DNA from: an uncultured Agathobacter sp.
Lineage (GTDB): Bacteria > Bacillota > Clostridia > Lachnospirales > Lachnospiraceae
Assembly: GCA_934316545.1 (NCBI GenBank)
Contig: CAKRDT010000041.1
Coordinates: 1-11,073, forward strand
DNA: 11,073 nt
Reading direction: 5' to 3'
Below, in pieces: positions 9,460 to 11,073 of this stretch (position 1 is its first letter; each line of letters opens with the position of its first letter). Below the pieces are notes generated by a model that was given only the letters and a program-made list of their open reading frames with translations, searched no databases and was not told the origin of the DNA. A program made the translations under genes and the position numbers.

Positions 9460-9549
9460 GGAGAGTTGTCCGAGAGGTCGAAGGTGCCGCACTCGAAATG
9501 CGGTTTGCGTCGAATAGACGCAACGTGGGTTCGAATCCCATGCTCTCCG
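9460..9549 (+). tRNA. tRNA-Ser, anticodon CGA (reads UCG)
   Basis: The 90-base gene has the acceptor stem GGAGAGT (9460-9466) pairing with GCTCTCC (9542-9548), with one T-G pair. The D arm is of the usual serine form, and the anticodon stem CCGCA/TGCGG frames the loop CTCGAAA, placing CGA at the anticodon. A long variable arm (TTGCGTC/GACGCAA around GAATA), typical of class II serine tRNAs, is followed by T arm GTGGG-TTCGAAT-CCCAT. The discriminator is G, as expected for serine. CCA is not encoded. It is a single gene with its own promoter and terminator. Confidence 0.97.
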
Positions 9550-9596: not shown

Positions 9597-10130
9597 CTAT
9601 TCCATTTCCGGCTGACGGCCTCTACGGTTGTCACGGCGACGGCGGCGGTTCTGATAATCTTTTCTGCCACCTTCAAACTCATCACGCTCGCGATCACGAT
9701 TGCGGTCACGTTCTCTGTCACGACGATCCCGATTATCGCGATTCTCACGGTTACGGCTGCGTCCTCCGCGATTGTCCCAGCCTTCCTGACTCTGATTTTC
9801 ACGATTCTCACGATTCTCACGGTTATCACGATCATTGCGTCTCTCTCGCTGATTGCTTCTGCCGGAATCCTTATGTTCGTTACGTTCGCCCGAATTATTC
9901 TCATTCCTGCGGTTCTCCGGAACCGGGCGCTCCTTCTTACGACCGATATACACATTCCACTTCATGTACGCTTCCTGTGCATTTTTCGATTTATAGATCA
10001 CATTGCGCTCTTCTCCGACAATATCGGTAATGCTGTACCAGCCTTTGTCATACTGGAACTCTGCGATCTTTCCCTCCAGTTCCTTGTTGCCCAGCACAAA
10101 TTTGTTCACGGCTTGTTGCTGCTGCGCCAT
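9597..10130 (-). CDS. Unrecognised protein with a small N-terminal domain and a charged Arg/Asn-rich tail
   Basis: I do not recognise this 177-residue protein. Residues 8-65 look like a compact domain (KFVLGNKELEGKIAEFQYDKGWYSI continuing through KNAQEAYMKWNVYIGRKK). From about residue 67 to the end it is a disordered, repetitive chain rich in Arg, Asn, Asp and Glu, with repeated NRE/NRD triplets and an RRRRRDNRRGR cluster near the end. Such tails resemble those of RNA-binding proteins, RNA chaperones or helicase tails; RNA binding is therefore inferred only. The start at 10128-10130 has AGGAGG six bases upstream, located inside the last codons of the carD-like gene, and begins one base after that gene's stop (TAA-T-ATG), so the two are translated together. 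Confidence 0.7.
   Translation of the reverse strand: MAQQQQAVNKFVLGNKELEGKIAEFQYDKGWYSITDIVGEERNVIYKSKNAQEAYMKWNVYIGRKKERPVPENRRNENNSGERNEHKDSGRSNQRERRNDRDNRENRENRENQSQEGWDNRGGRSRNRENRDNRDRRDRERDRNRDRERDEFEGGRKDYQNRRRRRDNRRGRQPEME
9795..9830. repeat. Tandem 9-bp coding repeats in the charged tail gene
   Basis: Four consecutive 9-base units (ATTTTCACG, ATTCTCACG twice, GTTATCACG) encode NRE-type triplets on the minus strand. Short in-frame repeats like this can expand or contract without frameshift, so tail length may vary between strains. Confidence 0.7.
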
Positions 10131-10131
10131 A

Positions 10132-10425
10132 TTATTCCTCCTCATTATGTAATAGAACGTAGTCCACTGCTGCTTTCAATAATTCATTCTTCTTGAGTTC
10201 CTCGGTCCCAAGCATCGCCTGTGCCTCTTCCTTTGTAAAAAGCTCCCGCAGCACCACCTGATGATGATCCACCGGTATGTACGACACCTTGGCCTTGTCC
10301 GCCACACTGCGGAGCACATAATACGGAACCCCTGCTTCTCCACGGGTGGCAGACAGTGACACGATGTTGTCAACCTGACATACACCCATAGTTTCACTGT
10401 ATATGATCTGTTTCTTTTCAAACAT
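10132..10425 (-). CDS. Small CarD/CdnL-like RNA polymerase-interacting protein
   Basis: This 97-residue protein resembles the N-terminal CarD/TRCF RNA-polymerase-interaction domain: MFEKKQIIYSETMGVCQVDNI, then PYYVLRSVADKAKVSYIPVD, matching the MF-GD-VVYP-HGVG...YYV...K-MVPVD pattern. CarD and CdnL bind the RNA polymerase beta subunit and stabilise open promoter complexes, with rRNA promoters a typical target. The usual C-terminal DNA-binding helical domain is reduced to about 30 residues (67-97), so this is a short version. The ATG at 10423-10425 is chosen because the protein then begins with the family MF motif and has GAGGTGG upstream; a longer frame to 10536 would run through the promoter. 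It is the first gene of a two-gene operon. Confidence 0.7.
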   Translation of the reverse strand: MFEKKQIIYSETMGVCQVDNIVSLSATRGEAGVPYYVLRSVADKAKVSYIPVDHHQVVLRELFTKEEAQAMLGTEELKKNELLKAAVDYVLLHNEEE

Positions 10426-10465
10426 AGAAGTCCACCTCTTGTATCCGAATAAAATAAGCTTCTTA

Positions 10466-10494
10466 ATTATATCATAAGTAGCACGCATTTTCAA
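10466..10494 (-). promoter_or_regulatory. Promoter of the carD-like operon
   Basis: On the minus strand -35 TTGAAA (10489-10494) and -10 TATAAT (10466-10471, within extended -10 TGATATAAT) are separated by 17 bases, giving a leader of about 35 bases. It diverges from the structured RNA promoter about 45 bases away. Confidence 0.8.
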
Positions 10495-10535
10495 AAAACA
10501 ATTTCTGGTCTTATATTTTTTTCTCTTTTTGAACA

Positions 10536-10563
10536 TTTACACAATATCAGTTCTGTATATAAT
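10536..10563 (+). promoter_or_regulatory. Promoter of the large structured RNA
   Basis: On the plus strand -35 TTTACA (10536-10541) and -10 TATAAT (10558-10563) are separated by 16 bases. It reads into the gene-free, highly structured region to the right and should start transcription near 10570. Confidence 0.7.
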
Positions 10564-10569
10564 ATTCCT

Positions 10570-11073
10570 TAACCATAAAGATATGATAAGCGATTGCGAA
10601 ACTCCTGTGGCGGCGTGCTCCGGCTGGGCTGACCCGATGGCGGGCTTCTACGCTGACACTAGTTATCCCAAATCAAGAATTTGCTGAAAATGTCCGCTGG
10701 GCTCTTTCTATGATTTTTGTCCGCTCAAGCTTAGACAGTGGCGCTCCGAATGTTCGTCTGAACACAGAATGTGTCCGATGGATTTCGTGTCTGCCTTACG
10801 TGGGGCACCTTTGTGAACGAGTGCCCACGGGTCGTGTTTGCGACCTCATAACTTAATGGCTCTCCACAATTCTATGAGGGGAGACATTAACCGAGAGTGG
10901 GCACAATCAAAATTCACAAAGTGCCCCTCTTAGGCAGACTAGAAATTTTGAGCACATCTGTGTCAGACGGACACTTGGAGTGCCACAGTCGAAGCATTGC
11001 TCGGACATAAAAATTGAGCCCAGCAGAGATTTTCGCAAATTCAATGATTTTGTCTAAAATCGTGTTCAGCGTA
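10570..11073 (+). ncRNA. Large rod-shaped structured RNA of unrecognised family, cut by the window end
   Basis: This gene-free stretch folds into one long bulged rod. Paired segments from outside inward: 10649-10659/11062-11073; 10670-10675/11045-11050; 10677-10691/11029-11042; 10696-10704 GCTGGGCTC/11016-11024 GAGCCCAGC; 10738-10747/10977-10986; 10751-10773/10953-10973 (21 pairs, two bulged A); 10789-10796/10932-10939; 10802-10817/10913-10927; 10821-10828 GTGCCCAC/10897-10904 GTGGGCAC. The tip (10829-10896) holds two hairpins and a possible pseudoknot. T10754-G10970, G10743-T10981 and T10863-G10880 are G-U pairs on the plus strand but mismatches on the minus strand, supporting plus transcription. 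I see no convincing ORF. The outermost visible stem reaches the last base, and 10571-10648 has no partner here, so the RNA continues. Its expected size would be near that of ROOL, GOLLD or OLE RNAs, but I cannot match it to them by sequence. Confidence 0.7.

Follow-up and report, generated by a model that had tools for sequence, protein, structure and literature searches.

The long double-stranded rod at the right-hand end of the window, by which we mean the whole 11,073-nt stretch of contig CAKRDT010000041.1 analysed here, is best explained as a giant foldback MITE: a non-autonomous, MITE-like mobile element of Lachnospiraceae, with IS1182-like ends and a conserved structured core. We put the probability of this reading at roughly 0.8. 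A mobile element is favoured because the sequence is multi-copy, lies among unrelated neighbours, is missing from orthologous sites, and carries ends resembling those of an insertion sequence (IS). No published description was found in a literature search, which is not proof of absence.

The rod itself is real. Folding of 10570–11073 gave a minimum free energy of −234.5 kcal/mol, compared with −147.0 ± 6.7 kcal/mol for 100 dinucleotide shuffles (z = −13.0), none of which folded as well, and no ORF of at least 60 aa overlaps 10587–11073. This agrees with the sequence-only reading of the same DNA, which had described a rod with bulges and small loops and without a convincing ORF at 10570–11073. 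Its location stands, but its limits need correcting. Comparison with other copies moves the start to about 10587, at TAAGCGATTGCGAAAC, the 3′ end is cut off by the end of the contig, and the arms, with their bulges and small internal loops, measure about 210 nt rather than the claimed 180 or so. Long-arm pairing spans 10649 to 11073, the last base of the contig. The first stretch, 10587–10648, pairs with nothing in the window rod; complete copies have both arms, and the right terminal inverted repeat of the window copy is expected past the contig end. From the outside inwards, the copies share one layout: a terminal repeat, a copy-specific outer stem, blocks A, B, C and D, and a variable apical loop, with variable stems lying between the conserved imperfect blocks (Table 1). 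In the least-changed copies the terminal repeat is close to TAGGCGTTTGCGAAACT. The GC content of the elements is 0.46–0.54, that of the window 0.45, and that of the flank at 10426–10585 is 0.27.

Table 1. Features of the element and its surroundings in the window
Feature	Position	Strand	Basis
Probable foldback (MITE-like) element, truncated at its 3′ end by the contig end	10587..11073	+	Relatives in R. faecis M72, G067 and two faecal scaffolds; ends by comparison
Terminal inverted repeat, left (TAAGCGATTGCGAAAC)	10587..10602	+	Resembles ends of the IS1182-like IS (TAGGCGCTTGCGAAACG / TGTTTCGCAATTACCTA) and of other copies
Outer stem, 5′ arm (sequence differs between copies)	10603..10659	+	Arm alignments; only 10649–10659 has a partner (11062–11073) in the window
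Conserved imperfect block A, 5′ side	10660..10692	+	Comparison of copies
Conserved imperfect block B, 5′ side	10710..10738	+	Comparison of copies
Conserved block C, 5′ side (GGATTTCGTGTCTGCCTTA)	10780..10798	+	Comparison of copies
Core: inner stem, block D, variable apical loop region	10799..10928	+	
Conserved block C, 3′ side (CTTAGGCAGACTAGAAATT); GT opposite TA, an arm-asymmetric internal loop	10929..10947	+	
Conserved imperfect block B, 3′ side	10986..11018	+	Comparison of copies
Conserved imperfect block A, 3′ side	11028..11061	+	Comparison of copies
Outer stem, start of 3′ arm	11062..11073	+	Arm alignment
Sigma-70-like promoter, outside the element	10536..10563	+	11/12 matches to consensus
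CarD-like gene (name from the sequence-only reading)	10132..10425	−	Nothing in Pfam at E 0.001 and nothing credible in NCBIfam

Relatives were found in few genomes, several copies at a time. Roseburia faecis M72 has four, one of which (C37) is a 277-bp form in which both arms are without blocks A and B. The relative genome G067 has eight, i.e., five complete, one truncated, and two split over contigs, the halves of which we paired via their complementary arms. Apart from the 277-bp form, complete copies measure 504–535 bp. Two faecal scaffolds add further relatives. The copy on L001 is 74% identical over 78% of the query and lies behind a spoVG-like gene, not a carD-like one, on a scaffold whose ORFs read as chromosomal-type genes (glgC/glgD-like, spoVG) plus an integrase-like fragment; that on L131 (6285–6542) is internally deleted. 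Both scaffolds show irregularities. Over its last ~100 nt, L001:3611–4219 perfectly complements its own 5′ side and flank, a feature not shared by R. faecis M72 and probably a foldback assembly artefact. The L131 copy agrees with R. faecis C33 in its 5′ flank but not in its 3′ flank, reflecting either a strain difference or an assembly chimera.

Beyond these, the element is rare. BLAST of 397 genomes of the family gave responses in three (R. faecis, G067, and one with a 28-nt match only); 3 of 62 genomes of the genus matched, two of them by only 24–25 nt; of five congeners of G067 one responded; and a covariance model of the core located it in 1 of 392 genomes of the order. These absence counts are not exhaustive, as two candidates were scored per family genome and the order-wide model search used strict filters. 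An exact 18-mer search of species genomes matched R. faecis M72 twice and one Synergistaceae bacterium (L005). The last was judged a chance match, no such hairpin being seen on folding; L013 was rejected on the same ground, and L016 and L017 were set aside on match length alone. Phage and plasmid origins were considered and discarded: three viral-contig pattern searches returned none, three and none, the three showing no kinship past the short match; the ‘phage’ records L001 and L131 are both unannotated faecal scaffolds; and plasmid searches yielded no element.

The insertion sites speak for mobility. Where both flanks could be mapped, in nine copies, the element lies between genes, with unrelated neighbours. 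In no full-length mapped copy does a reading frame stay open across the whole element; the 277-bp form has one, belonging to a 92-aa ORF that starts inside the copy. ORFs overlapping the nine copies (none screened for homology) are at most 136 aa long, except for one of 521 aa that merely extends out of the C83 copy into its neighbour. Empty orthologous sites were seen for several copies. C44 in G067 has a terminator upstream and a ribosome-binding site downstream, and in two congeners the first runs directly to the second. C81, the copy between spoVG and pth in R. faecis, is absent at all six junctions read (59 of 62 genomes had a match). At the R. faecis site orthologous to that of the window, which is empty, the carD-like gene is followed directly by a divergent gene, in our reading that of a transporter. 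For C78, match coordinates, and these only, leave 314 and 223 nt in two congeners compared with about 788 nt in G067. TA is found at both ends of four of the nine full-span copies (C26, C83, C44, C68), although it may be part of the repeat and not a target duplication. In the nine mapped copies one end lies ~24–54 nt from a start codon (for C83 as judged by eye), and C44 and C81 sit directly behind a terminator; such proximity reflects either insertion preference or survivorship.

The terminal repeat links the element to a particular IS. It resembles both ends of an IS that is complete on a plasmid of Roseburia sp. 831b. Relatives of this IS occur on a Butyrivibrio plasmid, at the ends of R. 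faecis contigs and, decayed, on a plasmid of Agathobacter rectalis. When ten elements were compared with two IS copies by BLAST, end matches of 12–19 nt were obtained for C26, C33, C81 and the window, weaker ones for C78 and C83, and none for C44, C68, C37 and C6, whose terminal repeats have changed. Between the ends we found no credible similarity of element and IS, internal matches appearing only at E 0.2 or worse. The repeat needs care as a search pattern. With up to three mismatches it was no commoner than its reversed control, and the informative matches are only those with zero or one mismatch and repeated sequence behind them. The IS transposase carries DUF772, scoring above the Pfam cut-off for that domain. 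Its closest NCBIfam model is IS1182, for which it reaches 67–70 bits against a cut-off of 270; an initial family guess, PF13586, gave no match. In G067, the draft assembly with most copies, this transposase was not found, which counts against a current partnership there. The IS1182-like ISs on the Roseburia and Butyrivibrio plasmids lie at L063:1611–3362 and L062:1593–3358, and no gene is entered at the transposase in the (incomplete) plasmid gene tables. On pCY360 two IS copies stand 14 bp apart, with CCTACATTTATTTATAAAT after both right ends.

The outer stems are nearly perfect within each copy and differ strongly between copies. In 11 copies, 607 of the 635 ungapped outer-stem columns are Watson–Crick, the rest being 11 A·C, 6 G·U and 11 transversions, with 27 gaps in addition; C6 and C81 are frayed in their outermost stretches. 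The window, with its 3′ arm missing, was left out of these counts and kept in those of the core and of isolated mismatches; the truncated L029 was left out of stem and core counts, L131 out of all counts, and L001 was used for the display alignment only and is not part of alignment A2. Between G067 copies, outer-stem identity is 0.11–0.77 (shuffled baseline 0.38, the lowest values coming from gaps) against 0.88–0.97 for the inner 150 nt. Likewise, R. faecis copies are 0.35–0.66 identical in the outer stem vs 0.69–0.94 inside. Distinct isolated mismatches in the outer and middle stems, in plus-strand reading, comprise 17 A·C, 9 G·U and 9 transversions. Selection on a plus-strand RNA should favour G·U, and these stems show no such excess. 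Near-perfect pairing within copies, strong divergence between them and few G·U pairs together suggest arm-to-arm copying of DNA, not selection on RNA. A process of this kind has been described: template switching in hairpins uses one arm as the template for rewriting the other, in a single event, and makes perfect stems (PMC8794818). The sequence-only reading had counted three G·U pairs in the rod that exist only if the plus strand is transcribed. In a crude arm alignment of the window we counted six plus-strand-only wobbles, but also four minus-strand-only ones, so that neither these nor the isolated mismatches support a plus-strand argument for the element as a whole.

The core is different. 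In an alignment of 12 sequences and 168 columns, 97.8% of the cells are paired, and 15 of 45 pairs have changed on both sides, compared with a shuffle mean of 7.4 (none of 500 shuffles reached 15) and with 0–4 in slid-alignment controls; the excess in further pair types is less marked (29 vs 24.9, with 18 of 500 shuffles as high). These figures are to be read knowing that the pairs come from the very alignment in which they were counted, and that related rows can beat shuffles without structure. Thus, the core covaries beyond both controls, a result that template switching can also produce. Paired change had been taken earlier to argue for a selected RNA rather than a recent inverted duplication. 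We agree that the paired changes in the core are real and that the rod is not such a duplication. The covariation argument is weaker than it appears, since isolated mismatches in the outer and middle stems show no bias to plus-strand wobbles, as template-switch correction would give.

Every lineage shows the same differences between the two arms of the blocks, such as GT opposite TA in block C, and these arm-asymmetric loops have been retained over roughly 30% sequence divergence between lineages. We consider them selected because arm correction would otherwise have erased them. Invariant columns make up 20 of 42 internal-loop, 50 of 90 paired and 0 of 32 apical positions of the core, and the loops are therefore about as conserved as the pairs. 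As to which strand matters, 11 of the 12 core sequences fold more stably as plus strand (−57.0 vs −49.5 for the consensus), and the 39 strand-neutral pairs show seven G·U types vs two A·C (10 vs 2 cells). Taking the 49 pairs of either strand's consensus, types remain uneven (12 vs 5) and cells do not (22 G·U vs 23 A·C), and whole elements fold better in the sense direction in 6 of 10. The plus-strand preference of the inner core, which represents about four independent lineages, is suggestive only. The core data suggest that the inner part is under purifying selection as a folded single strand, which could be either a plus-strand transcript or single-stranded DNA.

We picture the life of the element as follows. 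Its ends would be the terminal inverted repeats of the IS1182-like IS, the transposase of which most likely moves it in trans. After insertion, the arms could snap into a hairpin, and hairpin-templated synthesis (template switching) would copy one arm from the other, giving outer stems of near-perfect pairing and drifting sequence. The unequal conserved loops of the inner core, on the other hand, would be held by purifying selection on the folded transcript or on single-stranded DNA formed in replication or transposition. It is conceivable, though we hold it only tentatively, that this amounts to a new class: a transposable hairpin with IS1182-like ends, the plus-strand core of which carries asymmetric internal-loop modules and serves as a functional RNA or as a single-stranded DNA transposition substrate, and both outer-stem arms of which are rewritten by template switching.

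Two alternatives bear on what, if anything, is selected. In the first, the element is a vehicle for a mobile structured RNA: the plus-strand core (blocks A–D) would be a functional noncoding RNA set between IS-borrowed repeats, with selection acting on its transcript. The core is conserved and covaries across the window, R. faecis and G067; its sense strand folds better and its strand-neutral pairs favour G·U; in G067 it has stayed nearly constant as the outer stems diverged; the gene downstream is co-directional with the element in seven of nine mapped copies; and the IS, which has no core, does not need one. Against this, a consistent promoter is missing. A sense promoter with at least 10 of 12 matches within 80 nt upstream was found in one of ten copies, namely that in the window, and an antisense one in one of nine. 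No terminator was found in the window, which lacks the 3′ end of the element. In addition, the evenness of the 49-pair cells, outer and middle mismatches that favour neither strand, or the minus strand, the split of whole elements, and the dependence among core sequences (about four lineages) all speak against a transcript as the target. We regard this alternative as possible but less than probable.

In the second, the element is a plain decaying MITE in which nothing is selected, the inner part being conserved by youth and the paired changes being template-switch corrections. This would accord with G067 copies that are 88–97% alike inside, with outer and middle stems free of plus-strand wobble bias, and with C37, which has lost blocks A and B from both arms. 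It is hard to reconcile with asymmetric loops kept over such divergence, which correction would have evened out, and with outer stems that diverge far more than the inside. We think it rather unlikely.

The sequence-only reading itself, i.e., a large RNA gene that stands alone, has its own promoter and diverges from a CarD-like gene, fares much worse. The strong fold and the promoter-like site in the window speak for it, as does the lack of an Rfam match, which a new class would show. At gathering score, Rfam recognised only a tRNA (9460–9549) in the whole window; 10540–11073 searched at E up to 10 gave three hits far below gathering scores, which we take as chance, and four related loci had no match at E up to 1. 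By these Rfam searches no known family, including ROOL, GOLLD, OLE and 6S, accounts for the rod. The site upstream does exist, with 11 of 12 matches, but it does not belong to the element. Only this one of ten copies has one of 10 or more matches, and the promoter scan found eight such sites in 674 bp compared with 1.3 expected in shuffles. Perhaps it serves the gene that follows at the empty R. faecis site. The CarD-like gene is a chance neighbour, since its R. faecis homologue has no element upstream, and other copies adjoin unrelated genes. Different neighbours at every mapped copy, empty orthologous sites and IS-type ends contradict a lone chromosomal RNA gene, and we judge it very improbable. 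Beside the CarD-like gene, at 9597–10145, is an ORF of 182 aa with an Arg/Asn/Glu-rich C-terminal half, for which neither Pfam nor NCBIfam gave a match; its N-terminus resembles that of a protein at the R. faecis locus (L144). Finally, an assembly artefact (foldback chimera) might be suspected from the window, L001 and several G067 contigs that end in or at the element, from the self-complementary end of L001 and from the mixed flanks of L131, but it is contradicted for the nine copies that lie inside contigs with both flanks and genes on either side, four of them in R. faecis M72, an isolate by its title, and is next to negligible.

How does the giant foldback element compare with known systems? 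Integron attC sites are likewise imperfect hairpins in which some unpaired bases are conserved and the stem varies; the element, at about 500 bp, differs from them in size. Like the bacterial MITEs, including the Correia elements (NEMIS/CREE), QMITE2 and ERIC, it is gene-less, multi-copy and intergenic with IS-type ends. It is short and has no transposase ORF, its copies are dispersed, its terminal repeats are shared with an IS, and orthologous sites are empty. Transcripts of such MITEs are described as forming stable hairpins (PMC10969869; PMC2649163). The differences lie in size and architecture. QMITE2 is given as a 113–145-bp core with 23–29-bp repeats, and MITEs as typically AT-rich (both PMC10969869), a property that is typical rather than defining. 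The present element, in contrast, is ~510 bp long, folded over its full length and not AT-rich, and has copy-specific near-perfect outer stems and conserved asymmetric loops.

A second comparison is with ISs of the IS1182 family. IS1272, placed in that family in one account, is reported there to act on stem-loops and to transpose by replacing them (PMC5678879). The element resembles this family in that its ends are like those of an IS whose transposase is nearest the IS1182 model, and differs in having no transposase gene; the partner IS itself falls below the family cut-off. A structure-dependent transposase would, speculatively and by analogy, fit an element whose repeats change sequence yet keep pairing. 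At the C44 site no stem-loop replaced in the IS1272 manner was seen, and the neighbouring terminator is kept. With ROOL, GOLLD and OLE, lastly, the element has in common that they are large, highly structured and without ORF, and of function unknown or poorly known. Those RNAs adopt, by published description, ornate and complex folds and form multimers (PMC12286853), whereas the element is a single rod on an IS-like element and has no Rfam match.

These comparisons matter for how large RNAs are recognised. A mobile palindrome can pass the usual tests, i.e., a strong fold, covariation, no ORF and no Rfam hit. Many copies per genome, with both outer-stem arms changed together, document how paired positions in hairpins change, and could be used to test template switching against stepwise compensation through G·U as the keeper of perfect long stems. 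Should the core prove to be an RNA, gut bacteria would offer one of the uncommon examples of structured RNA dispersed as a gene-less transposon.

Two smaller sequences in R. faecis are related to the element. A 58-bp mini-palindrome (L042:1460–1517; C3:81892–81949) has the same kind of terminal repeats without the core, and at C48:53770 (L056) we recognised by eye a fragment of a C33-type 3′ arm joined to other sequence.
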